DNA from: Prevotella sp.
GTDB taxonomy: Bacteria > Bacteroidota > Bacteroidia > Bacteroidales > Bacteroidaceae
DNA: 64,000 nucleotides
Reading direction: 5' to 3'
Assembly (NCBI GenBank): GCA_017847725.1
Contig: JAGAXW010000020.1
Location: forward strand, 18,979-82,978
A program made the position numbers and the translations under genes. The stretch's first letter is position 1; each line of letters starts with the position of its first letter. The notes under the pieces were generated by a model that made no database searches, was not told the DNA's origin, and saw only the letters and a list, made by a program, of their open reading frames with translations. Positions 1,164-34,773 of the stretch are shown here, one piece after another.

Positions 1164-1772
1164 TTATCCTATTGCTTTCCTTAATTTCCCAAAATGGTCT
1201 ATCAGTGCTTGATAGTCCAGTTCCTGATGGATGTTAAATCGGTTCCATAGGTCTCTGCAGATGACGACGCCTCCAAACCCCAGGTCCTTGGCTATCTTGA
1301 TGTTCTCGAGGTTCATGCCGCCTAATGCATATACGTGGCGGTCTATCAGGCCGCGGCGGGAGGCCTCCTTCAGTTCATCAAGAGTAAAAGTAGCTTTTCG
1401 GTCTGGCTCTGTCTGACTGTCGAAGATATACTTTAGGAAGACATAGTCGGCATTGCGCTTGGCTTCCTTCAGCAGTTCCAGATGGGTACAGGTACGGCTT
1501 ATGCGCCCCTTGTATCCTTTAGGTACAGGCGCGACCTCGTCATTCAAGTGAATTCCTTTTAACTTGTATTCTTCCTTCAGGTAGAAATTGTCGTGTACGG
1601 TAATCTTATTGTAGTATTCTTCGTGAAGCAACGTTAGGAGTCGCTCTGAATACATAGGTGAAGAGTCTGGCTTGAACAGGTGTAGGTCGTCCAGTCCCTC
1701 ATCGAATAGTGATGTAAGAATCTTGTCTTCTTCCACGAAAAACGTGGGTTGTGTCATTACAACAAGTTTCAT
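1164..1772 (-). CDS. Thiamine phosphate synthase / TenI-like TIM-barrel protein
   Basis: A 202-residue protein with the pattern of the ThiE/TenI superfamily: a short barrel with GIHLNDE near residues 74-80 (compare the GVHLGQ element of ThiE), the late-barrel YALGGMN near 150-156 and GFGGVVICRDLW near 166-177. ThiE condenses HMP-PP with the thiazole phosphate to make thiamine phosphate. Several ThiE substrate loops are poorly conserved and no other thiamine genes are nearby, so this may be a TenI-like relative with another role. It lies 6 bases after pheS and 29 bases before prs, within one operon. Confidence 0.7.
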   Translation of the reverse strand: MKLVVMTQPTFFVEEDKILTSLFDEGLDDLHLFKPDSSPMYSERLLTLLHEEYYNKITVHDNFYLKEEYKLKGIHLNDEVAPVPKGYKGRISRTCTHLELLKEAKRNADYVFLKYIFDSQTEPDRKATFTLDELKEASRRGLIDRHVYALGGMNLENIKIAKDLGFGGVVICRDLWNRFNIHQELDYQALIDHFGKLRKAIG

Positions 1773-1778
1773 ACTCTT

Positions 1779-2837
1779 TTAGTTGGCTGATTCAAACTCT
1801 TTTAGGAAACGTACATCGTTTTCAGAGAACATGCGCAGGTCGCTTACCTGATATTTCAGATTGGTAATGCGCTCTACGCCCATGCCAAACGCATAGCCGC
1901 TATATATCTTAGAGTCAATGCCGCATTGTTCAAGAACGTTCGGGTCGACCATGCCGCATCCTAAAATCTCCACCCAACCGGTGTGCTTGCAGAATCCGCA
2001 TCCTTTGCCACCACAGATAAAGCAGGAAATATCCATTTCTGCACTGGGTTCTGTGAATGGGAAGTAGCTGGGGCGCAGACGGATTTTTGTGTCGGCACCG
2101 AACATCTCGCGGGCAAACGACAGCAGAACCTGCTTCAAGTCGGTGAAGCTCACATTCTTGTCAATGTAGAGGCCCTCCACCTGATGGAAGAAGCAGTGGG
2201 CACGGGCTGTGATGGCTTCGTTGCGATATACTCGTCCAGGGCAGATGACGCGGATGGGCGCAGTCAGCTTTCCGTCTTCAGTGTGCATGTGCTCCATGAC
2301 CCTTGCCTGAACGCTGGAGGTATGGGAACGCAACAGGATGTTTTTCGTCACATCGTTGGGGTGCTGACTGATAAAGAAGGTGTCTTGCATGTCGCGAGCA
2401 GGATGGTCGGCTGCGAAGTTCATCTTTGTGAAGACATGCAGGTCGTCTTCCACTTCAGGGCCGTCGGCCAGCACAAAGCCCATGCGTGAGAATATGTCGA
2501 TTATCTCGTTGGTGACAATCGTCAGAGGATGGCGTGTACCCAGTTGAATGGGGTAGGGAGTCCGTGTAAGGTCAATACCTGTGTTGTCACTCTCTTGAGT
2601 CTCGGTTTGTTCTTTCAGTTGGTTGATACGGTCCTGAGCCATCTGCTTCAGTTCGTTAATCTTGATACCAACCATCTTTTTCTGGTCTGCAGCCACATTT
2701 CTGAAATCGTTCATGAGCGCAGTAATCTCACCCTTTTTGCTCAGGTATTTCAACCTTAGCTGTTCTACTTCTTCAGCATTCTGGGCGCTTAATGTCTCAA
2801 CTTCTTTGAGTAACTCATTTATTTTATCAAGTATCAT
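1779..2837 (-). CDS. pheS: Phenylalanine--tRNA ligase alpha subunit
   Basis: Catalytic subunit of the alpha2-beta2 PheRS that charges tRNA-Phe. An N-terminal coiled coil (about residues 1-75) is followed by the class II core. Motif 2 is visible around GRVYRNEAITARAHCFFHQV, a CxxC-rich segment around CFICGGKGCGFCKHTGW, and motif 3 as GYAFGMGVERI near the C-terminus. I chose the ATG at 2837 (352 residues) because the longer frame back to 2876 runs through the promoter box at 2865-2873. pheT is not in the window. First gene of the leftward operon with the ThiE-like gene, prs and the lipoprotein. Confidence 0.97.
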   Translation of the reverse strand: MILDKINELLKEVETLSAQNAEEVEQLRLKYLSKKGEITALMNDFRNVAADQKKMVGIKINELKQMAQDRINQLKEQTETQESDNTGIDLTRTPYPIQLGTRHPLTIVTNEIIDIFSRMGFVLADGPEVEDDLHVFTKMNFAADHPARDMQDTFFISQHPNDVTKNILLRSHTSSVQARVMEHMHTEDGKLTAPIRVICPGRVYRNEAITARAHCFFHQVEGLYIDKNVSFTDLKQVLLSFAREMFGADTKIRLRPSYFPFTEPSAEMDISCFICGGKGCGFCKHTGWVEILGCGMVDPNVLEQCGIDSKIYSGYAFGMGVERITNLKYQVSDLRMFSENDVRFLKEFESAN

Positions 2838-25032: not shown

Positions 25033-25113
25033 CCAATAGCGATAAAATTTTGCAGAATTTAACGTAAATATTTTATCACTTGCCACCATCACATTTTTTT
25101 TGCCTACAACCAT

Positions 25114-25153
25114 AAAAATAAGGCTGCAATGTTTGGTTGCAGCCTTATTTTTT
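25114..25153 (+). terminator. Intrinsic terminator upstream of ftsY
   Basis: AAAAATAAGGCTGCAA (25114-25129) pairs with TTGCAGCCTTATTTTTT (25137-25153). It immediately precedes the ftsY promoter box and has no obvious upstream gene, so it may end a small transcript or insulate ftsY. Confidence 0.8.
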
Positions 25154-25155
25154 CG

Positions 25156-25164
25156 TACTTTTGC
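25156..25164 (+). promoter_or_regulatory. -7 box for ftsY-rimO-HU-HU/LysM
   Basis: TACTTTTGC, 19 bases before the ATG at 25184. It directly follows the terminator T-tract. Confidence 0.7.
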
Positions 25165-25183
25165 AGTCGTAATATATTGCGTT

Positions 25184-26140
25184 ATGGGTATTTTCGGATT
25201 TTTTAATAAGGAAAAGAAGGAGACACTGGACAAGGGATTGGAAAAGACCAAGACCAGTGTCTTCGACAAGATAGCCCGTGCCGTGGCCGGGAAGTCGAAA
25301 GTGGACGACGATGTGCTTGACAATCTGGAGGAAGTGCTCGTCACGTCGGACGTCGGCGTGGAGACGACGCTCAAGGTCATCGAGCGCATCGAGGAGCGAG
25401 TGGCGCGCGACAAGTATGTCTCTACCAGCGAGCTGAACGAGATATTGCGCGACGAGATAGCCTCGCTGCTGGCCGAGAACAATTCGGACGACAACGACAA
25501 CTGGGACCTGCCCGGCGACCATAAGCCCTATGTCATCCTGGTGGTAGGCGTAAACGGCGTGGGCAAGACGACGACCATCGGCAAACTGGCGTGGCAGTTT
25601 AAAAACGCCGGTAAGAAGGTATACCTGGGTGCTGCCGACACCTTCCGTGCCGCTGCCGTGGAGCAGTTGTGCATCTGGGGCGAGCGCGTAGGCGTGCCTG
25701 TCGTCAAGCAGCAGATGGGGTCCGACCCCGCCTCGGTGGCATTCGACACGCTGCAGAGCGCCAAGGCCAACGGAGCCGACGTGGTGCTGATAGACACCGC
25801 CGGCCGCCTGCACAACAAGGTGGGACTGATGAACGAGCTGAAGAAGGTGAAGGAGGTCATGAAGAAGGTGTTGCCCGACGCTCCCGACGAGGTGATGCTC
25901 GTGCTCGACGGTTCTACCGGGCAAAATGCCTTCGAGCAGGCAAAGCAGTTCTCGGCCGTCACTCAGATTACGTCGCTGGCCATCACGAAGCTCGACGGCA
26001 CAGCCAAGGGCGGCGTAGTCATCGGCATCTCCGACCAGCTCAAGGTGCCCGTGAAGTATATCGGACTGGGCGAGGGCATGCAGGACCTGCAGCTATTCAA
26101 TAAACGTCAGTTTGTGGACTCTCTCTTCAAGCATGACTAA
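25184..26140 (+). CDS. ftsY: Signal recognition particle receptor FtsY
   Basis: The SRP receptor GTPase that docks ribosome-nascent chain complexes at the membrane. The 318-residue form is nearly all NG domain, with only a short basic N-terminus in place of the acidic A domain. GTPase motifs are VGVNGVGKTTTIGKLA near 119-134, DTFRAAA, DTAGRLHNK and TKLDGTAKGG. The start MGIFGFFNKEKKE at 25184 is preferred over upstream codons that lie within the terminator. rimO starts 8 bases before its stop. Confidence 0.97.
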   Translation: MGIFGFFNKEKKETLDKGLEKTKTSVFDKIARAVAGKSKVDDDVLDNLEEVLVTSDVGVETTLKVIERIEERVARDKYVSTSELNEILRDEIASLLAENNSDDNDNWDLPGDHKPYVILVVGVNGVGKTTTIGKLAWQFKNAGKKVYLGAADTFRAAAVEQLCIWGERVGVPVVKQQMGSDPASVAFDTLQSAKANGADVVLIDTAGRLHNKVGLMNELKKVKEVMKKVLPDAPDEVMLVLDGSTGQNAFEQAKQFSAVTQITSLAITKLDGTAKGGVVIGISDQLKVPVKYIGLGEGMQDLQLFNKRQFVDSLFKHD

Positions 26141-27422
26141 ACAGACGATAGACATCATCACCTTAGGCTGCTCGAAAAACCTGGTCGACAGTGAGCAGCT
26201 GATGGGGCTCTTTGAGGCCAACGGCTATCATGTCACGCACGATGCCGAACAGCCTCAGGGTGAGATAGCCGTGGTCAACACGTGCGGATTCATCGAAGAC
26301 GCCAAGCAGGAGAGTATCGACACCATCCTCGAACTGGTGCAGGCAAAGGAGGAGGGACGACTGAAGAAACTCTATGTGATGGGATGCCTCTCGGAACGCT
26401 ATCTGGCCGACCTGGAAGCCGAGATTCCGGAAGTGGACGGCTGGTACGGCAAGTTCAACTACAAACAGCTGCTGACAGACTTGCAAGAGACAAACACCTG
26501 TGAGGGTAGGCGCCATGTCACTACGCCCAGTCACTATGCCTACGTGAAAATCTCGGAGGGCTGCGACCGCCATTGTGCCTATTGCGCCATCCCCATCATC
26601 ACCGGCCGCCACAAGAGCAGGCCCATGCAGGAAATACTGGACGAGGTGCGCTGGCTGGTGGGGCAGGGTGTCAAGGAGTTTCAGGTCATCGCCCAAGAAC
26701 TGACCTATTATGGAGTGGATATCGACGGCCGTCAGCATATCGCCGAACTGATAGAGCGCATGGCAGAGATAGAAGGGGTGGAGTGGATTCGGCTACACTA
26801 TGCCTACCCGGCTCACTTCCCATGGGACCTGCTGCGCGTGATACGCGAAAAGCCGAACGTATGCAACTATCTCGACATCGCCCTACAGCACATCTCCGAC
26901 CACATGCTGAGCCGCATGCAACGCCATTTCTCCAAGCAAGAGACCTACGAACTGATAGAGAGAATACGCCGCGAGGTGCCCGGCATCCATATCCGCACGA
27001 CGCTGATGGTGGGATTCCCGGGCGAGACGGACGACGACTTCAGCGAACTGATAGCGTTTACCAAATGGGCGCGCTTTGAGCGAATGGGTGCCTTTGCCTA
27101 TTCGGAAGAAGACGGGACATACAGCGCCCTGCACTACGCAGACGACGTGCCGGCTGAGGTGAAGCAGGCCCGACTGGATAAGCTGATGCGCATACAGCAG
27201 AACATCAGCGCCGAGATAGAGGCCGACAAGGTGGGGCGCCGGATGCGCATCATCGTAGACCGGCTGGAGGGCGACTATTTCGTAGGCCGCACGGAGTTCT
27301 GTTCGCCCGAGGTAGACCCAGAGGTGTTGGTGCCTGCTGCTGAAAATCTGCGGATTGGCGAGTTCTATGATGTACGCATTACGGATGCGGAGGAGTTTGA
27401 TTTATACGCTACGACATTATGA
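26133..27422 (+). CDS. rimO: Ribosomal protein S12 methylthiotransferase RimO
   Basis: A radical SAM enzyme with two 4Fe-4S clusters that methylthiolates an Asp of ribosomal protein S12. The 429 residues show the N-terminal UPF0004 Cys set (LGCSKNLVDSE, VVNTCGFIEDA, MGCLSERY), the radical SAM triad in GCDRHCAYCAIP near 139-150, and a C-terminal TRAM domain. The start ATG at 26133 overlaps the ftsY stop. The stop TGA overlaps the next ATG (27419), so all four genes are coupled. Confidence 0.96.
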   Translation: MTKQTIDIITLGCSKNLVDSEQLMGLFEANGYHVTHDAEQPQGEIAVVNTCGFIEDAKQESIDTILELVQAKEEGRLKKLYVMGCLSERYLADLEAEIPEVDGWYGKFNYKQLLTDLQETNTCEGRRHVTTPSHYAYVKISEGCDRHCAYCAIPIITGRHKSRPMQEILDEVRWLVGQGVKEFQVIAQELTYYGVDIDGRQHIAELIERMAEIEGVEWIRLHYAYPAHFPWDLLRVIREKPNVCNYLDIALQHISDHMLSRMQRHFSKQETYELIERIRREVPGIHIRTTLMVGFPGETDDDFSELIAFTKWARFERMGAFAYSEEDGTYSALHYADDVPAEVKQARLDKLMRIQQNISAEIEADKVGRRMRIIVDRLEGDYFVGRTEFCSPEVDPEVLVPAAENLRIGEFYDVRITDAEEFDLYATTL

Positions 27423-27703
27423 ATAACAAGGAGTTTATAGCAATGTTGGCCGAACGAACCGGCTATACTGCAAAGGATACCCAAAAGCTGGTGAACAACA
27501 TGGTCGACGCTATGGGGGACGCTTTCCAAGACGGCAACTCCGTTATGGTACCTAATTTCGGTGTCTTTGAAACGAAGAAGAAGATGGAGCGTATCATGGT
27601 GAATCCGTCGACTGGTCAGCGTATGTTGGTGCCGCCCAAACTGGTGCTTGGCTTTAAGCCAAACCAGGCCTGGAAGGCACAGCTGAAAGGAGGACAGGTA
27701 TGA
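27419..27703 (+). CDS. HU family DNA-binding protein
   Basis: A 94-residue HU-type protein. The helical N-terminal dimerisation part (ERTGYTAKDTQKLVNNMVDA) is followed by a beta-arm region (VPNFGVFETKKKMERIMVNP). It binds and bends DNA as a dimer. It overlaps rimO by 4 bases, and its stop overlaps the start of the membrane HU protein, with an AAAGGAGG ribosome binding site before that start. The two HU proteins may form heterodimers; this is inference. Confidence 0.9.
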   Translation: MNNKEFIAMLAERTGYTAKDTQKLVNNMVDAMGDAFQDGNSVMVPNFGVFETKKKMERIMVNPSTGQRMLVPPKLVLGFKPNQAWKAQLKGGQV

Positions 27704-28983
27704 TGGAGAAGTATACCATACAGGAGATAGCCAAGATACTTGTCGAGAAAAACGGGCTGTCGCAGCGCGACGCCAACAGATTCGCCACCGAGATGTTTGC
27801 CATCATCCTGGAGCAGCTGCAACAGGGCGACTTCGTGAAGGTGAAAGGTCTTGGCACCTTTAAGATTATCAATGTCGAGGCCCGTGCCAGTGTCAGTGTG
27901 CGCACGGGGGAGCGTGTCTTGATCGACAGTCATTCAAAGGTGAGCTTCACGCCGGATTCTACCATGAAGGAACTGGTCAATAAGCCTTTCTCGCAGTTTG
28001 AAACGGTAACACTCAATGAAGGCGTAGAATTTGACGATCTGGAAGACGATACTGACGAAGATACCTCTGTGGTCAAGGCTGTTTCCGACGATGCTCCTGT
28101 CGTGGAACCTGTTCCTGAGTTCGTTCCGGAATACGTGCCGGAGCCTGTCGTAGAACCTGTTGTGGAACCCATTCCTGAATTTATTCCGGAACCAGTTCCA
28201 GAGCCCGTTGTAGAGTCTGTCGTAGAGCCTGTTGTAGAACCCACTCCAGAGTCTGTTGTGGAACCCGTCGTAGAATCTGTTGTAGAACCCACTCCAGAGC
28301 CTGTTGTGGAACCCGTCGTAGAACCTGTTGTGGAACCCACTCCAGAGCCTGTTGTGGAACCCAGCCCCATCGTAGAACCCATTCCCGAACCAGCTCCCGA
28401 ACCGGAACCTGCTCCAGAGCCCGTCTCAGATAATAAACAGCCTCTGCTTGCAATTGACGACAATCCTCAAATATCCCGGTGGCTTTTAGTTGTAATGGGA
28501 TTTGTTGGCGTTGCGGTTGCAATGCTGTCTGCTTATGGAGGCTACCAGTATGGTATTGCCTCACAGCCATATGTGGCCGATACCGTCATGGTGAGGGATA
28601 CGGTGTTCGTTCCCCTGCCGGAGGAGGAAGAGGACTCTGTAGAACAGTTTGACGTGACTGACGAGCAGCATGAGATGGCAGAAGAAGAGAAACCGCAGCC
28701 ACAGCCCGAAGCCAAGACGGACGAGGCATCGGAGATAGCTGACAAATACGCCAAGAAAGACGAGCGCGTACGACTGGGAGCATACCGCATCGTGGGCACG
28801 GCCCAAGTAGTGACGGTGAAGCCTGGTCAGACTTTCTATAGCCTGTGTAGGGCATATCTGGGTCCGGATATGGAGTGCTACGTGGAAGTGTACAACGACC
28901 TGCCCCCAGAGCCCCGCCTGAATGCCGGTCAGACATTGAAGATACCGAAGTTGGAGCGCAAGAAGGCTCAAAAGAACAACTAA
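27700..28983 (+). CDS. HU domain - Pro/Glu repeat - transmembrane - LysM protein
   Basis: A 427-residue protein of uncommon build. An HU-like domain (about 1-92, with GDFVKVKGLGTFKI) is followed by an acidic stretch (105-125), a Val-Glu-Pro repeat region (133-242) and one transmembrane helix (about 261-285, WLLVVMGFVGVAVAMLSAYG). An acidic periplasmic stretch leads to a C-terminal LysM-like domain (about 368-420, VTVKPGQTFYSLCRAYLG). The likely topology puts HU in the cytoplasm and LysM on peptidoglycan, which would tie the nucleoid to the wall. Membrane-linked HU relatives are known in Bacteroidota; the role is unproven. Confidence 0.85.
   Translation: MMEKYTIQEIAKILVEKNGLSQRDANRFATEMFAIILEQLQQGDFVKVKGLGTFKIINVEARASVSVRTGERVLIDSHSKVSFTPDSTMKELVNKPFSQFETVTLNEGVEFDDLEDDTDEDTSVVKAVSDDAPVVEPVPEFVPEYVPEPVVEPVVEPIPEFIPEPVPEPVVESVVEPVVEPTPESVVEPVVESVVEPTPEPVVEPVVEPVVEPTPEPVVEPSPIVEPIPEPAPEPEPAPEPVSDNKQPLLAIDDNPQISRWLLVVMGFVGVAVAMLSAYGGYQYGIASQPYVADTVMVRDTVFVPLPEEEEDSVEQFDVTDEQHEMAEEEKPQPQPEAKTDEASEIADKYAKKDERVRLGAYRIVGTAQVVTVKPGQTFYSLCRAYLGPDMECYVEVYNDLPPEPRLNAGQTLKIPKLERKKAQKNN
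28098..28425 (+). repeat. Degenerate tandem repeat coding Val-Glu-Pro units
   Basis: Roughly 12- to 36-base units such as GTTGTGGAACCC and ACTCCAGAGCC repeat inside the HU-LysM gene. They code for VVEPVVEPTPEP-type segments, an extended Pro-rich rod between the HU domain and the membrane. Such arrays change length easily by slippage. Confidence 0.85.
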
Positions 28984-29112: not shown

Positions 29113-30108
29113 ATGGCAGAAGCTATTGATATCCGTGAATTAAATATTCGGATAGAACAACAAAGTGGATTCGTTACAAATCTGGTGACGGGCATGGATC
29201 GTGTAATTGTCGGACAGAAACACCTTGTCGACAGTCTGTTGATTGGACTGCTGAGCGATGGCAATATTCTGCTTGAGGGTGTTCCCGGACTGGCTAAGAC
29301 GCTGGCCATCAAGACGCTGGCCCAGTTGATCGATGCTACCTATAGTCGTATACAGTTTACACCGGATTTGTTGCCTGCCGACGTGACAGGTACCATGATA
29401 TATTCTCAGAAAGACGAGAAATTCCAAGTAAAGAAAGGTCCGGTGTTTGCGAATTTTGTACTGGCCGATGAAATCAACCGTGCTCCGGCAAAGGTGCAGA
29501 GTGCACTGCTGGAGGCTATGCAGGAGAAGCAGGTGACGATAGGCAGTGATACCTTCGAGTTGCCCAATCCGTTCCTTGTGATGGCCACCCAGAACCCGAT
29601 AGAGCAGGAGGGCACCTATCCGTTGCCTGAAGCGCAGATGGACCGCTTTATGCTGAAGGTGGTGATAGGATACCCGACCATAGACGAAGAAAAGAAGATT
29701 ATCCGCGAGAATATCGCTGGAGCACTGCCAAAGGTGCTGCCTGTCACGACGGCTGAGGAGATTCTTCAGGCACGTTCCGTAGTACGTGAGGTGTATATTG
29801 ATGAGAAGATTGAACAGTATATAGCCGACATCGTGTTTGCAACCCGCTATCCTGACCGTTATGGACTCAAGGACATGAAAGACATGATTTCGTTTGGCGG
29901 TTCTCCTCGTGCCAGTATCAATCTTGCCAAGGCTGCCCGTGCCTATGCGTTCATCAAGCGCCGCGGATATGTGGTGCCAGAGGATGTCCGTGCCGTTGCT
30001 CACGATGTGTTACGTCATCGCATAGGACTTACCTACGAGGCCGAGGCATCAAATATTACCAGTGAGGAAATCGTCTCGAAGATTGTTAATAAGGTGGAAG
30101 TTCCTTGA
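29113..30108 (+). CDS. MoxR family AAA+ ATPase
   Basis: A 331-residue AAA+ chaperone-like ATPase. Walker A is EGVPGLAKTLAIK near 56-68, Walker B ADEINRAPAKVQ near 116-127, and the sensor 1 segment is VMATQNPIEQEGTYPLPEAQ near 156-175. MoxR ATPases help assemble or activate vWA-domain partners, here probably the DUF58 and BatA/BatB proteins encoded just downstream. Its stop TGA overlaps the next start. Confidence 0.93.
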   Translation: MAEAIDIRELNIRIEQQSGFVTNLVTGMDRVIVGQKHLVDSLLIGLLSDGNILLEGVPGLAKTLAIKTLAQLIDATYSRIQFTPDLLPADVTGTMIYSQKDEKFQVKKGPVFANFVLADEINRAPAKVQSALLEAMQEKQVTIGSDTFELPNPFLVMATQNPIEQEGTYPLPEAQMDRFMLKVVIGYPTIDEEKKIIRENIAGALPKVLPVTTAEEILQARSVVREVYIDEKIEQYIADIVFATRYPDRYGLKDMKDMISFGGSPRASINLAKAARAYAFIKRRGYVVPEDVRAVAHDVLRHRIGLTYEAEASNITSEEIVSKIVNKVEVP

Positions 30109-30977
30109 TGGAGACAAGTGAAATCCTCAAGAAAGTACGGAAGATAGAGATTAAGGCCCGTGGCCTCAGCTCGAACGTCTTTGCCGGGCAATATCATTCT
30201 GCATTCAAAGGCAGAGGTATGGCCTTCAGTGAGGTGCGCGAGTATCAATATGGTGACGACATTCGTGACATTGACTGGAATGTCACGGCTCGTTTTCACC
30301 ATCCCTATGTGAAGGTCTTCGACGAGGAGCGTGAGCTGACTGTTATGTTGCTCATAGATGTCAGTGGCTCGCTTGATTTTGGGACACAGCGCCAGTTGAA
30401 GCGTGATATGGTGACGGAAATCGCTGCCACGATTGCTTTCTCTGCCATCCAGAACAATGACAAGATAGGGGTGATCTTCTTCTCTGACCACATAGAGAAA
30501 TACATCCCTCCCAAGAAGGGACGTCACCACATCCTATATATCATCCGCGAAATGCTGAATTTCAAGCCTGAGTCTCGTCGTACGGATGTGAAGCAGGCTT
30601 TAGAGTTCCTGACCAGTGTGTCTAAGCGCCATTGTACAGCCTTTGTGCTGAGTGACTTTTACGACGATCAGGATTTCCTGCAGGCTCTTCAGATAGCTAA
30701 TCGTAAGCATGACCTGGTGGCGCTTCAGGTGTATGATGTGCGTGCCAAGGAGTTGCCGGATGTCGGCCTGATGCGTGTGGTCGATGCCGAGACTGGCCAC
30801 GAACAATATATTGACACGAGTAGCCGAAGTCTCCGTCAGGCGCATCAGCGCTATTGGGAAAGGCAGCAGCAGCGATTGTATGAATACATGAATAAGAGTA
30901 ATGTCGACTTGGTGAGCATTGCCACTAATGAAGACTATGTAAAGGCGTTACTTATGCTTTTTAAACAGAGAAGCTAA
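30108..30977 (+). CDS. DUF58 domain protein (vWA-like)
   Basis: A 289-residue cytoplasmic protein. The DUF58 signature YGDDIRDIDWNVTARFHHPY is near 43-62, and a vWA-like fold with LLIDVSGSLDFG near 80-91 provides a MIDAS-like DxSxS. Usually the partner of the upstream MoxR ATPase. The ATG at 30108 overlaps the moxR stop (TGATG); a TTG at 30105 is the less likely start. Ends one base into the next gene. Confidence 0.9.
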   Translation: METSEILKKVRKIEIKARGLSSNVFAGQYHSAFKGRGMAFSEVREYQYGDDIRDIDWNVTARFHHPYVKVFDEERELTVMLLIDVSGSLDFGTQRQLKRDMVTEIAATIAFSAIQNNDKIGVIFFSDHIEKYIPPKKGRHHILYIIREMLNFKPESRRTDVKQALEFLTSVSKRHCTAFVLSDFYDDQDFLQALQIANRKHDLVALQVYDVRAKELPDVGLMRVVDAETGHEQYIDTSSRSLRQAHQRYWERQQQRLYEYMNKSNVDLVSIATNEDYVKALLMLFKQRS

Positions 30978-32020
30978 TGAGAAGATTGTCCGTATTGATA
31001 TTGTTGGTCTTCAATGTTTTGACAGCGTTGTCGCAAGTAAACGTTGAAGCAAGGATTGATCCGATAGAAATACTGATTGGGCAGCAGGCGCAGGTAGTTC
31101 TGACGGTTCATGCCGACGAGAATGCCAACATAGAATGGCCTATGCTGAAGCCTCGCCAGTTGTTGAATGAGGGGGTTGAGGTCGTTCATGTGCAGCATCC
31201 TACCCAACATGAAATGGTGCTGACGGTGACAAGTTTTGACGGACGGCTCTATCACCTGGATCCTTTCTCGGTAAAGGTGAACGGGCGTGAGTACAAGACG
31301 GCTGATTTGGCACTGAAGGTGGTGGAAGTAGAGGTCGACACTACGAAACTGGACAAGTTTTATGGTCCGAGAGACGTGCAGGACAATCCTTTTCTCTGGA
31401 GCGAGTGGGCCTCTGTGTTTTGGCTCAGCCTGTTAGTCATATTGCTGTCGGTTGTCGGCTACTACCTGTTTTTGCGACTGCGTGACAACAAGCCTATTGT
31501 CGTCCGTATCAAGATGGTCAAACGGCTGCTGCCGCACCAGAAGGCAATGAAGGAGATAGAGCAAATCAAGACAGACCGACTGGTGACCTCTGAAAATCAG
31601 AAGGCTTACTATACCAAGCTGACGGATACGCTGCGCCGCTATATTGAGGAGCGATACGGATTCTCGGCAATGGAGATGACGAGCAGTGAAATCATCGAGC
31701 GCCTGATGGCATCCGCTGACGAACAGTCTCTGTCAGAACTGAGCCAGTTGTTCCTGACTGCCGACCTGGTTAAGTTTGCCAAGTATTCGACCCTCATCAA
31801 TGAGAACGACGCCAATCTTGTAAGTGCTGTTGACTTTATCAATCAGACCAAACTTGAGAATCAGCCTACGCAAGAGATTGTGAAACCCGAACTCTCTGCC
31901 GCCGACCAACGCACACAAAAGACCCGTCGGCTACTGAAGGCTGTCATCTGGTTGCTGGCCATCGCTACAGTGGGGCTTTTTGCCTATATCGTTTACAGCA
32001 TGTATCAACTGTTAGTATAG
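30977..32020 (+). CDS. Bat-cluster membrane protein of unknown function
   Basis: A 347-residue protein. A signal peptide or anchor (about 1-19) is followed by a beta-rich periplasmic part (20-135), a transmembrane helix (about 147-168, WLSLLVILLSVVGYYLFLRL), a cytoplasmic helical domain with TDTLRRYIEERYGFSAMEMT near 213-232, and a final helix (about 318-340). The cytoplasmic part resembles the helical tail of BatD-like proteins. It sits between the DUF58 gene and batA, a usual place for such a protein in Bacteroidota aerotolerance clusters. Confidence 0.75.
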   Translation: MRRLSVLILLVFNVLTALSQVNVEARIDPIEILIGQQAQVVLTVHADENANIEWPMLKPRQLLNEGVEVVHVQHPTQHEMVLTVTSFDGRLYHLDPFSVKVNGREYKTADLALKVVEVEVDTTKLDKFYGPRDVQDNPFLWSEWASVFWLSLLVILLSVVGYYLFLRLRDNKPIVVRIKMVKRLLPHQKAMKEIEQIKTDRLVTSENQKAYYTKLTDTLRRYIEERYGFSAMEMTSSEIIERLMASADEQSLSELSQLFLTADLVKFAKYSTLINENDANLVSAVDFINQTKLENQPTQEIVKPELSAADQRTQKTRRLLKAVIWLLAIATVGLFAYIVYSMYQLLV

Positions 32021-32030
32021 AAAAAGAAAA

Positions 32031-33029
32031 ATGGAATTTGAAAATAAAGAATATCTGTTTTTACTGCTGCCGCTGATACCTTATGTAATCTGGTATCTGA
32101 TGTATCGCAAGAAAAGCGAGCCAACGATACGCATGAGCAATACTCGTGTCTATCAATATGCGCCTCGCTCTTGGAAAGTCAGGCTTATGCCCATTCAGAT
32201 GCTGTTGCGTATCGCTGCCATTGTACTGCTGGTTATCGTCCTGGCGCGTCCTCAGACAAAAAATTCCTGGAAGAACAAGACGATGGAAGGTATCGACATC
32301 ATGCTGGCCATGGATGTGTCGACCTCAATGCTGGCTGAAGACCTCAAGCCTAACCGACTTGAAGCTGCCAAGCAGGAAGCCGCAGAATTCGTTGTTGCAC
32401 GCCCTAACGATAATATTGGCTTGACTATCTTCGCAGGTGAGGCTTTCACGCAATGTCCTATGACGACAGACCATGCTTCCTTGCTCAACCTGCTCCATAA
32501 CGTGCGAACCGATATCGCACAGCGCGGTTTGATAGAAGACGGAACGGCTATCGGTATGGGCCTGGCCAACGCAATCAGTCGCCTGAAAGACTCCAAGGCT
32601 AAAAGCAAGGTCGTTATCTTGCTGACAGACGGTTCAAATAATCGTGGCGACTTGTCGCCTATGACAGCTGCCGAGATAGCGAAAAGTCTTGGTATTCGTG
32701 TGTATACAATTGGTGTCGGCACCAACAAGGTGGCACCTTATCCTATGATAGTTGCCGGTGGTGTTCAGTATGTTAATGTACCCGTAGAAATTGACACCAA
32801 GACCCTGAGTGATATTGCTCATGCAACAGATGGCGATTTCTATCGTGCGACGAATAACCGTGAACTACAGAAAATCTATCAGGAAATAGATAAACTGGAG
32901 AAATCAAAGCTTAATATAAAGAAATTCAGTAAGCGCTACGAAGCCTATCAGCCCTATGCAATAGCTGCAGTGCTGATACTCTTGTTAGAGATGCTGTTGC
33001 GCATTACCGTGTTCCGTAAGTTACCATAA
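32031..33029 (+). CDS. batA: BatA-like vWA membrane protein
   Basis: A 332-residue protein with two N-terminal transmembrane helices (about 8-24 and 58-76), a periplasmic vWA domain (about 85-285) and a C-terminal helix (about 305-325). The MIDAS is intact: MAMDVSTSMLAED near 93-105 (DxSxS) and ILLTDGSNNRGD near 201-212. Bat proteins were linked to oxygen tolerance in Bacteroides fragilis; the molecular task is unsettled. Second vWA gene directly downstream. Confidence 0.9.
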   Translation: MEFENKEYLFLLLPLIPYVIWYLMYRKKSEPTIRMSNTRVYQYAPRSWKVRLMPIQMLLRIAAIVLLVIVLARPQTKNSWKNKTMEGIDIMLAMDVSTSMLAEDLKPNRLEAAKQEAAEFVVARPNDNIGLTIFAGEAFTQCPMTTDHASLLNLLHNVRTDIAQRGLIEDGTAIGMGLANAISRLKDSKAKSKVVILLTDGSNNRGDLSPMTAAEIAKSLGIRVYTIGVGTNKVAPYPMIVAGGVQYVNVPVEIDTKTLSDIAHATDGDFYRATNNRELQKIYQEIDKLEKSKLNIKKFSKRYEAYQPYAIAAVLILLLEMLLRITVFRKLP

Positions 33030-33054
33030 AAATAACGCAAATAATAGAAAGACC

Positions 33055-34773
33055 GTGTTTCGATTTGAAGATCCCATATATCTCTATTCCTTGGTACTGA
33101 TCCCATTGTTGGCACTTGTTCGTTTCGCGTTGTTGCGGCAACAGAAGAAACGCTTGCGCCGTTTTGGTGACATAGAACTCTTGCGCCAACTCATGCCGGA
33201 TGTTTCTCGGGTACGCCCTTCTGTGAAATTCTGGATGTTGCAGCTGGCATTGGCATTACTCATTGTCGTGATTGCCCGTCCACAGTTTGGAACAAAAATC
33301 AGCAATGAGAAGAGAACTGGTATTGAGACGATTATTGCGATGGATGTCAGTAACTCGATGCTGGCAGAAGATGTTACACCCAGTCGACTGGACCGTGCAA
33401 AAATGATGGTAGAGAATCTGGTGGATCATTTTACGGACGACAAGATTGGTCTTATCGTTTTTGCTGGCGACGCCTTCATACAGTTGCCCATAACAAGTGA
33501 CTATGTGTCGGCAAAAATGTTTCTTTCAAGCATTTCCCCCTCCATGATAGCTACACAGGGAACGGATGTCGCAGCTGCTATCAGACTGGCAACTCATAGC
33601 TTTACAAAGCAGGAGGGCGTCGGGCGTGCCATCATTGTTATCACGGATGGAGAGGACCATGAGGGAGGTGCGTTAGAAGCTGCTGAGGAAGCGAAGAGTC
33701 AAGGGATGCTCGTCTATGTCTTAGGTGTCGGATCGACAAAGGGTGCACCTATTCCTATCGGCGACGGCGACTATCTGAAGGACAATACTGGGCAGACCGT
33801 GATGACGGGGCTTAACGAGGAAATGTGCCGACAGATAGCCCAGGCTGGCGGTGGCGCATATATACATGTGGAGAATAACAGCCGTGCCCAGGATTTGCTT
33901 GATGCAGAACTTGGCAAGTTGACAAAAAAAGAAATTAGCAGTACCATCTATAGCGAGTATGATGAGCAATTCCAGTATGTCGGTTTATTGGCTTACCTGC
34001 TCTTATTGCTTGAGTTGTGCATACTGGAGATTAAGAATCCGCTGCTGAGGAATGTATCCCTCTTCAAGAGAAAAGGTACTGCGGTGCTGCTATTGCTGAT
34101 AATAGGATGCTGTTTTATGCCTTCTGATTTGTCAGCACAGAATGCCCGCCAGTTGGTGCGACAGGGAAATAAACATTTTCGTGCAGGAAACTATGCAGAT
34201 GCTGAGGTCGCGTATCGTAAGTCTGTAGAGAAAGATGCACGTAACGCCCAAGCTGCCTATAATCTTGGAAATGCCTTGCTTGCACAGCGTAAGGATTCTG
34301 CGGCAGTCGTCCAGTTTGAGGCTGCTGCAAAACTGGAAGAAAATCCTATCCGCAAGGCCATGGCTTATCACAATATTGGCGTTATATGTCAGGGCAAACA
34401 GATGTACTCTGAAGCCATAGAGGCTTACAAGGAGTCTTTGCGCAATAATCCTGATTCTGATGAGACCCGTTATAATCTTGAACTGTGTAAACGTCAACAG
34501 AAACAACAGCAGAATCAGCAACAGCAGGATAAGTCTAAACAAGACAAGAATCAAAAGAATCAGCAACAGCAACAAGATAAACAGAACGATCAGAGCCAGC
34601 AAAAAAATCAAGATAAGCAGAACAAGGAAGCGCAGCAACAGCCACGACAGATGAGTCGTGAGAATGCTGAGCAACTGCTTAATGCCGCCATTCAGGAGGA
34701 GAAATCTACCCAGGAACGTATGAAGAAGGCACAGCAGCAGGCAGGACGTCGCCGGCTCCAGAAGAATTGGTAA
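33055..34773 (+). CDS. BatB-BatC fusion: vWA plus TPR membrane protein
   Basis: A 572-residue protein joining two usually separate products. Residues 1-325 are BatB-like: two helices, a vWA domain with MAMDVSNSMLAED near 95-107 and VITDGEDHEGG, and a closing helix. Residues about 340-360 (AVLLLLIIGCCFMPSDLSAQ) look like a retained BatC signal peptide or anchor. Residues 360-480 hold three TPR units (RQGNKHFRAGNYADAEVAYR onward), then a Gln/Lys/Asn-rich tail (480-545). The start is GTG at 33055, as no ATG precedes the first helix. Confidence 0.85.
   Translation: MFRFEDPIYLYSLVLIPLLALVRFALLRQQKKRLRRFGDIELLRQLMPDVSRVRPSVKFWMLQLALALLIVVIARPQFGTKISNEKRTGIETIIAMDVSNSMLAEDVTPSRLDRAKMMVENLVDHFTDDKIGLIVFAGDAFIQLPITSDYVSAKMFLSSISPSMIATQGTDVAAAIRLATHSFTKQEGVGRAIIVITDGEDHEGGALEAAEEAKSQGMLVYVLGVGSTKGAPIPIGDGDYLKDNTGQTVMTGLNEEMCRQIAQAGGGAYIHVENNSRAQDLLDAELGKLTKKEISSTIYSEYDEQFQYVGLLAYLLLLLELCILEIKNPLLRNVSLFKRKGTAVLLLLIIGCCFMPSDLSAQNARQLVRQGNKHFRAGNYADAEVAYRKSVEKDARNAQAAYNLGNALLAQRKDSAAVVQFEAAAKLEENPIRKAMAYHNIGVICQGKQMYSEAIEAYKESLRNNPDSDETRYNLELCKRQQKQQQNQQQQDKSKQDKNQKNQQQQQDKQNDQSQQKNQDKQNKEAQQQPRQMSRENAEQLLNAAIQEEKSTQERMKKAQQQAGRRRLQKNW

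Follow-up and report, generated by a model that had tools for sequence, protein, structure and literature searches.

Two adjacent HU-family genes, named here HU1 and HU2, were found in the window (that is, the whole 64,000-nucleotide stretch of DNA that was analysed), the first encoding a soluble protein and the second an HU domain joined through an acidic linker to one predicted membrane helix and a LysM-like end. The two genes have been inherited jointly over a long time and have repeatedly been fused, and the DNA arm has been shortened on one side of the pair, in HU2. We consider it fairly probable that HU1 and HU2 form an asymmetric, IHF-like heterodimer that tethers DNA to the inner membrane and peptidoglycan.

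The host is a gut Prevotella-like bacterium. The features of the locus are as follows.

25100..26140, + strand: ftsY (SRP receptor), first in the run ftsY-rimO-HU1-HU2; TIGR00064, 360.1 bits (cut-off 260.7)
26112..27422, + strand: rimO (ribosomal protein S12 methylthiotransferase); TIGR01125, 445.3 bits (cut-off 356.95)
27419..27703, + strand: HU1, soluble HU-family subunit of 94 aa; PF00216, E 6.3e-24; motif PPKL; intact frame
27605-27607, + strand: arm-tip proline of HU1, Pro63; Pro here in 131/131 unique pairs
27700..28983, + strand: HU2, membrane HU subunit of 427 aa; PF00216, E 3.1e-19; AlphaFold model; family alignment
27715..27993, + strand: HU domain of HU2, residues 6-98; pLDDT block means 83-93 at residues 11-90, lower at both ends
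27853..27954, + strand: beta-sheet and DNA arm of HU2, residues 52-85; modelled strands 52-59, 62-65, 72-75 and 78-85
27898-27900, + strand: Val67 of HU2, at the position of the HU/IHF arm-tip proline
27976..28032, + strand: conserved extension that follows the HU domain of HU2, VNKPFSQFETVxLN-GV; Asn of VN in 131/131
28033..28449, + strand: acidic Pro/Glu/Val linker, cytoplasmic; pLDDT block means 37-56; variable length and composition
28465..28560, + strand: predicted membrane helix, residues 256-287; hydropathy 2.16; single long helix in the model
28762..28959, + strand: LysM-like domain, predicted periplasmic, residues 355-420; PF01476, E 0.0043, below cut-off

Gene order and conservation of the pair

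The first-pass annotation had described two adjacent HU genes with a 4-base overlap, and this was confirmed: both frames are open at the coordinates listed above and the overlap reads ATGA (27700-27703). It would comprise only one base if HU2 starts at the second of two tandem ATGs. The overlap between rimO and HU1 is likewise ATGA, 4 bases long (27419-27422), and we infer that rimO probably starts at ATG 26133 rather than 26112.

The same pair was found well beyond the window: each of the 134 other HU2 loci inspected has HU1 directly upstream and in the same orientation, with a gap of -14 to +32 bases. Three further divergent loci (G081, G175 and G259) also carry the pair. From the profile searches of the order and the phylum, the 30 best matches were taken as loci; the weaker matches inspected were nine from the order, whose HU1 neighbour was read from coordinates, and the three divergent loci, while G302 entered the count on its score and frame length alone. 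Copies of the window itself (L002, L004, L008, L009, L090 and L148) were removed before counting, and the unique set comprised 131 HU2s including that of the window (135 less four duplicates). In G033 and G778, with apparent frames of 479 and 508 aa at HU1, HU1 and HU2 are separate genes. In the tree, all HU2s formed one clade (SH-aLRT 99) and all HU1s another (86, not starred); both were separate from 25 other HUs and each spanned two bacterial classes.

In the comparison with L055, dN and dS were 0.066 and 1.71 for HU1, and 0.156 and 0.83 for the HU domain of HU2; two comparisons with L040 were saturated. Judging by this purifying selection and by conservation across the 131 unique pairs, the gene pair is not a chance feature. 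Within the HU2 extension, N94, P96, F97, F100, E101 and T102 were invariant in 28 alignment rows.

The order ftsY, rimO, HU1, HU2 was kept in all 50 loci read on genome contigs, and rimO was present in 40 of the 58 short-flank loci. Different neighbours of the pair were observed in family f138 and in some other families. Because HU1 and HU2 stay together in several families whose upstream genes differ, the pair could be ruled out as a mere by-product of the rimO operon. The neighbourhood also bears on whether the pair acts as a membrane-bound gene regulator, in which LysM would sense the wall and the HU pair would alter nearby genes, for example the downstream moxR-bat operon. Within the available flank, moxR was found downstream of the pair in 25 of the 50 loci, and it was also downstream at several loci without rimO upstream. 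However, the inconstant neighbours noted above, the general nature of DNA binding by HU and a Pfam scan of HU1 and HU2 that gave no signalling domain all count against such a regulator, which we regard as very unlikely.

Architecture of HU2 and its relation to known proteins

The domain order previously read from the HU2 sequence was borne out: an HU domain, a linker, one membrane helix (by both hydropathy and model) and a LysM-like end, with the HU and LysM-like domains confident and the linker disordered in the AlphaFold model. The 'long Pro/Glu rod' of the first-pass annotation had to be given up, since this region is instead a disordered acidic linker that is not conserved and that varied across 80 HU2 proteins both in length (47-262 aa) and in Pro content (2-34%). 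The hydropathy core of the helix (28483-28539) is the sole hydrophobic segment in HU2. Among 131 HU2s, Lys/Arg flanking the helix were richer on the N side in 88, poorer in 25 and tied in 18; because of this more frequent enrichment, the N terminus is predicted to lie inside, with the protein crossing the membrane once.

At the C-terminal end, the match of window HU2 to PF01476 reached 17.4 bits, under the cut-off of 20.9, and the AlphaFold model contained a beta-alpha-alpha-beta unit with pLDDT block means of 93-97 (residues ~355-420), the LysM fold being read off the strands and helices of the whole-protein model. A C-terminal-domain profile of 41 relatives matched solved LysM structures (Ecp6, 2.5e-11; Kbp, 3.6e-9), and both this profile and the modelled unit agree with a Kbp-type LysM. 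In contrast, the Prevotella-group end appeared divergent from Kbp: a profile from the group rows only had 4uz2 as best match (3.6e-4) and Kbp at E 0.11, and the end carries an unusual LGPDMECYVE block. At E <= 1, PF01476 was matched by 20 of 28 Prevotella-group members, including the window (best 5.4e-6), and by 10 of 28 members from other families (best 1e-4). The Prevotella-group LysM profile missed all 25 f138 loci, as well as 12 of the 29 loci (L091-L119) that represent other Bacteroidales families. A profile from 26 of those 29 loci recovered all 25 f138 loci and 28 of its own 29, the single miss being L093, which runs off its locus; at E <= 1e-3 it recovered 1 of the 81 proteins in the Prevotella-group set, which by construction includes L035 of another family. 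Since it scores below the Pfam cut-off and since the other-family profile recovered just that 1/81, the window LysM is divergent. It may bind peptidoglycan. The cysteine-containing LGPDMECYVE block was exact in 54 of 80 group proteins, and a cysteine lay within the last 75 residues in 77 of the 80 Prevotella-group HU2 proteins. An invariant LGPDMECYVEV block was considered and dropped because the relatives had been found with PDMECYVE as search seed.

A membrane-linked HU precedent in Bacteroidota had been mentioned in the first-pass annotation. This fits the HU-CCDC81-TM-SPOR proteins of Bacteroidota, reportedly described by Burroughs et al. in Cell Cycle in 2017 with a predicted role in chromosome partition, and which we take to be PF18174/PF18175 plus SPOR. 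The window genome encodes a separate member of this family (L146, scoring 97.6 and 88.2), but HU2 itself stands outside it: in the Pfam scan every CCDC81-type domain stayed below its cut-off (PF18175, 14.7 bits against 35) and SPOR gave no match at E <= 1, and HU2 could thus be ruled out as an HU-CCDC81-SPOR protein. Both have an HU-superfamily domain, one hydrophobic segment and then a peptidoglycan-binding domain, whereas HU2 has a classical PF00216 domain and a LysM-like end and is partnered by a soluble HU. The distributions differ as well: at E <= 1e-10, 194 of the order's 294 genomes contain PF18175 (SPOR aside), compared with 44 of 294 for HU2.

A second likeness is to HubP/FimV, with which HU2 shares a periplasmic LysM(-like) domain, a single membrane helix and a long acidic cytosolic part; HubP has these three elements and acts on origin position via ParA1 (PMC8789113). 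In HU2, however, the order is reversed, with LysM at the C end, an HU domain replaces the coiled coils/TPR (the Pfam scan gave no C-terminal TPR region in HU2), and DNA contact would be direct. Among the open-access matches listed, no published description of an HU-LysM protein was found, most subscription papers lying outside the scope of that search.

Dimerisation and the DNA arm of HU2

Both proteins scored well above the PF00216 cut-off of 22.4 (HU1, 84.5 bits; HU2, 69.4 bits). Foldseek with the HU domain of HU2 gave IHF/HU as top matches (E 6.5e-8), those among solved structures being IHF. Like the IHF alpha/beta and HU alpha/beta heterodimers, the pair consists of two distinct HU-fold subunits. 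It differs from them in falling short of the equivalog cut-offs for IHF and HU (IHF alpha/beta, best 58.3 bits for HU1 and 50 bits for HU2, cut-off 111), in the membrane helix of HU2 and, among the unique Bacteroidales pairs, in having the proline in HU1 only.

A tethered HU1-HU2 model of a relative reached pTM 0.74, and its two top structural matches were single-chain IHF (2iie, TM-score 0.54, rmsd 8.9; 2iif, TM-score 0.38, rmsd 13.1). This model was built from 7 paired alignment rows (A10) without a control pairing, so that the two HU halves may pack anyway; alignment A9 (33 rows) had been set aside, since it divided 13 HU2-only rows between the two halves. The HU1 half shows an HU fold with arm, and residues 84-96, at the HU1 end, were under pLDDT 50.

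The first-pass annotation had suggested that the soluble HU could dimerise with the membrane HU, and the gene fusions in the sister genus g27 strengthened this view. A single frame encoding HU1 and the whole of HU2, including the linker, the helix and the LysM-like end, occurred in 5 of the 54 g27 loci (species; L199, at a contig edge, was excluded), corresponding to five parsimony changes on a weakly supported tree (16 of 58 inner branches starred, and the fused L222 a long branch). Because the genes are fused in five relatives, HU1 is likely the dimer partner of HU2. The alternative that HU2 tethers as a homodimer, with HU1 an ordinary soluble HU merely sharing the operon, seems quite improbable: HU proteins can form homodimers, window HU2 has a complete HU domain, and its arm stretch has the full length of 41 residues, as in all 135 HU2s outside g27; but the five single-gene fusions, the presence of HU1 in 134/134 inspected loci even with changed neighbours, and arm shortening in HU2 and not in HU1 oppose it. 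Thus, of the earlier idea that a single molecule could tie the nucleoid to the wall, the tether layout stood, whereas the evidence favours an HU1:HU2 pair over one molecule.

The concern that the HU-like part might lack the DNA-binding arm was not borne out, window HU2 showing modelled strands at residues 52-85. HU/IHF proteins carry an intercalating proline at the arm tip. In HU2 it was absent from all 106 Bacteroidales of the unique set but present in all 25 f138 proteins; the three divergent loci, which are from the same order, have it too and keep an RNP arm. In g27, 20 of the 54 loci, all five fusions among them, had an HU2 arm stretch of 21-39 residues instead of 41 (seven parsimony changes), while the HU1 arm, measured by sequence pattern, was 24 residues long in 54/54; outside g27 it was 24 in 116 of 135 loci, the other 19 not fitting the pattern. 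Since most Bacteroidales HU2s have lost the arm-tip Pro and those of g27 often part of the arm, most of the grip on DNA probably comes from HU1. The HU1 proline was missing in 8 of the 54 g27 species, including one of the five fusions (L203), and its loss was more frequent where the HU2 arm was shortened (7/20 versus 1/34; Fisher p 0.003); this coupling was not significant once relatedness was respected (2 independent pairs, supported branches).

The loss of Pro and arm from HU2 might also reflect a lesser importance of DNA binding. In the eukaryotic CCDC81, the HU fold has been proposed to have turned from DNA to protein-protein binding, and HU2 might similarly be a HubP-like envelope landmark that has given up DNA binding and uses its HU fold and HU1 to bind proteins. 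The absence of the HU2 proline in 106/106 Bacteroidales, the partial arm loss in g27 and the loss of the HU1 proline in 8/54 g27 species would agree with this, as would the resemblance of the tethered pair to doublet-microtubule proteins (8snb_1K, TMq 0.49) and the low charge in f138; the net charge of the HU domains was modest (+5 and +2 in the window, means of -0.8 and -0.3 in f138), and that of the other Bacteroidales HU2 domains averaged -0.17. We nevertheless consider a landmark of this kind unlikely, given that HU1 kept its arm length in 54/54 g27 loci and its proline in 131/131 unique pairs outside g27, and that HU2 kept a full-length arm in 135/135 loci outside g27 and an RNP arm in the three divergent loci.

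Proposed tether and its meaning

In the proposed heterodimer, soluble HU1 would bring a full DNA arm with proline, and HU2 would supply the other half of the dimer, which its linker, membrane helix and periplasmic LysM would hold at the inner membrane and peptidoglycan. HU1 would become membrane-bound on meeting HU2, and DNA would thereby be kept at the envelope in a direct DNA-membrane-wall tether, which may help to position or segregate the nucleoid. Such a tether would be laid out like the polar landmark HubP, with a nucleoid protein as cytoplasmic head. The stronger version, for which we see about an even chance, is an obligate wall-anchored HU heterodimer with divided labour, in which one subunit grips DNA and the other anchors to membrane and peptidoglycan, the anchor having lost its Pro in most Bacteroidales, repeatedly shed part of its arm in one genus and fused about five times there.

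How the nucleoid is held and placed in Bacteroidota has been little studied. If true, our reading would mean that many gut Bacteroidales, together with bacteria of a second class of the phylum, have a direct physical connection between chromosome and cell wall. A conserved anchored HU heterodimer would offer a single-gene handle (hu2 or its LysM part) in culturable Bacteroides- or Prevotella-type strains, and the natural fusions, together with stepwise loss of one arm, would provide a comparative system for the roles of each half of an HU dimer.

Genomic context and distribution of the pair

The window encodes a soluble HU-family protein (HU1, 94 aa) and an adjoining HU protein with a membrane segment and a LysM-like end (HU2, 427 aa), which belong to a run of four genes:

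25100-26140, ftsY, first gene of the run ftsY-rimO-HU1-HU2
26112-27422, rimO, directly 5' of HU1, with an ATGA overlap with HU1
27419-27703, HU1, PF00216 match well over the cut-off
27700-28983, HU2, PF00216 match well over the cut-off

The 4-base overlap of HU1 and HU2 proposed in the first-pass annotation was confirmed (ATGA is common to both genes), and the pair it suggested seeking in relatives was indeed found: HU1 adjoined HU2 on the same strand in all 134 other loci examined, which were the best-scoring ones from genus-, order- and phylum-scale searches. The order ftsY-rimO-HU1-HU2 was kept in 50 of 50 loci from genome contigs. In 18 of 58 short-flank loci rimO was not found, with contig ends cutting some of them and another gene lying upstream in others. 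Since other upstream genes replace rimO at some loci, the pair forms an independent unit. The moxR and bat-type genes 3' of HU2 (window 29113-34773) also follow it in many relatives; within the flank examined, moxR followed HU2 in 25 of the 50 loci, and also in several loci without rimO upstream.

Judged from homologous named records, the window is Prevotella-like. HU2 was matched at E <= 1.3e-13 in 31 of 36 genomes of the same genus (own included), and the five genomes lacking a match are 50-86% complete. Among 294 genomes sampled from the order, a wide profile detected HU2 at E <= 5e-30 in 41; two weaker matches with long frames and one fusion brought the total to 44. Among the matches listed for 281 genomes of the class, all seven strong ones fell within the order and no HU2 at comparable scores was found outside it; the next matches (7.9e-22 and weaker) were mostly frames of <200 aa, two being 339 and 380 aa. 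HU2 was also present in f138, a family in another class of the phylum. Its distribution is patchy. In a tree, HU2s formed one clade (support 99) and HU1s another (86, not starred), both apart from 25 other HU proteins of the same genomes. At locus L242 (genome G259), the HU part (1777-2220, minus strand) and the membrane-LysM part (1190-1843, minus strand) occupied different overlapping frames, reflecting either an assembly error or a real frameshift.

Domain architecture and topology of HU2

The domain architecture of HU2 is almost certain: the HU domain is followed by an acidic linker, one hydrophobic segment and the LysM-like end. In an AlphaFold model built on a 28-row alignment, the HU domain (strands within 52-85) reached pLDDT block means of 83-93 between residues 11 and 90 and the LysM-like unit 93-97; the linker was disordered, and a separate helix spanned residues 256-287. 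The low scores of the whole model (mean pLDDT 68.5, pTM 0.30) are expected because the domains are joined by disorder. Foldseek matches of the model were IHF and HU (best E 6.5e-8). The linker is not the Pro/Glu rod described previously: besides its modeled disorder, it varied among 80 Prevotella-group proteins from 47 to 262 residues, with 2-34% Pro and 12-45% Asp/Glu. The claim of a single membrane segment held in a unique set of 131 non-duplicate pairs (106 Bacteroidales, own included, and 25 f138), with hydropathy >1.5 in 130 of 131 HU2s and two segments in none. The N side of this segment was richer in Lys/Arg in 88 of the 131, poorer in 25 and equal in 18. Because Lys/Arg lay mostly on the N side and there was no early hydrophobic segment, sequence suggests that the HU part is inside and LysM outside.

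The window HU2 scored under the Pfam cut-off for LysM. At E <= 1, LysM was found in 20 of 28 Prevotella-group members (best 5.4e-6) and 10 of 28 members from other families. A profile from the C-terminal ends of 41 relatives matched solved LysM domains down to 2.5e-11; the best such match for the Prevotella group alone was 3.6e-4. The other-family LysM profile found 1 of 81 of the Prevotella-group set versus 25 of 25 f138 proteins. Judged by these profiles, the Prevotella-group LysM is divergent. It carries an unusual cysteine-containing block, LGPDMECYVE (window 28858-28887), exact in 54 of 80 proteins; Cys occurred among the last 75 residues of HU2 in 77 of 80 Prevotella-group proteins versus 2 of 55 elsewhere. 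The block could serve a special ligand or a disulfide. The HU2 of L093 (G163) is a 726-aa open frame with the hydrophobic segment, its C-terminal end lying beyond the locus stretch examined.

DNA arms, gene fusions and the putative heterodimer

The arm-tip position, where HU/IHF proteins carry the intercalating proline, was Pro in HU1 of all 131 unique pairs. In the 106 Bacteroidales HU2s it was Val (98), Ile (7) or Glu (1) and never Pro; f138 HU2s had Pro in 25 of 25. Since the HU2s of three divergent same-order loci outside the unique set (G081, G175 and G259) have an RNP arm, the proline was probably ancestral and lost en route to the remaining Bacteroidales HU2s.

In the sister genus g27, which belongs to the same family, 55 of 60 genomes had a match, as did 37 of 37 good assemblies. 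HU1 and HU2 were fused into a single uninterrupted frame in 5 of 54 usable loci, and each of the five frames also encodes the linker, the hydrophobic segment and the LysM-like end. That neighboring genes have fused is classically taken as evidence for their products acting in contact. The HU2 arm stretch was 41 residues in all 135 HU2s outside g27 and in 34 of the 54 g27 loci, the other 20 (including all five fusions) having 21-39; HU1 arm length was constant in 54 of 54 loci. On a tree computed without the HU2 arm columns, arm length required 7 changes and fusion 5, many branches being weak. As the shortening was repeated and confined to the HU2 arm, the sequences indicate that this arm is dispensable in g27 while that of HU1 is kept. 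However, HU1 was without Pro in 8 of 54 loci, one of which (L203) is a fusion; 7 of the 8 belong to the 20 loci whose HU2 arm is shortened.

When HU1 and HU2 of one relative were modeled as a single chain by reading through the stop (mean pLDDT 83.2, pTM 0.74), single-chain IHF gave the two top structural hits (2iif, TM 0.38; 2iie, TM 0.54). Because there was no control pair, this model indicates compatibility with a heterodimer, not proof. We consider an HU1:HU2 heterodimer quite probable. The model also matched sperm and flagellar doublet-microtubule proteins (8snb_1K, 9e2g_2N and 8g2z_1T), which are perhaps tandem CCDC81-type HU domains.

A possible DNA-envelope tether and a second membrane HU protein

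According to PMC8789113, Vibrio cholerae HubP combines a LysM domain in the periplasm with a single membrane helix and a long, acidic stretch in the cytosol; it influences chromosome 1 origin position via ParA1. Compared with HubP as described there, HU1:HU2 has the same layout, whereas its domain order is reversed and it has a predicted DNA-binding head. On the basis of this layout and head, HU1:HU2 is proposed to tether DNA to the envelope, which would most likely serve nucleoid placement; a link from DNA to the wall is somewhat more likely than not.

The same genome encodes another membrane HU protein, from a different family (L146:1300-2433; contig C17 of the genome, near 121028), with two HU-CCDC81 domains, a hydrophobic segment and SPOR (97.6, 88.2 and 39.6 bits). 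For proteins of this kind, a partition role was reportedly predicted in 2017 by Burroughs et al. HU2 is a different membrane HU beside the HU-CCDC81-SPOR protein in one cell, and one genome encodes two distinct HU proteins that are predicted to be wall-linked.
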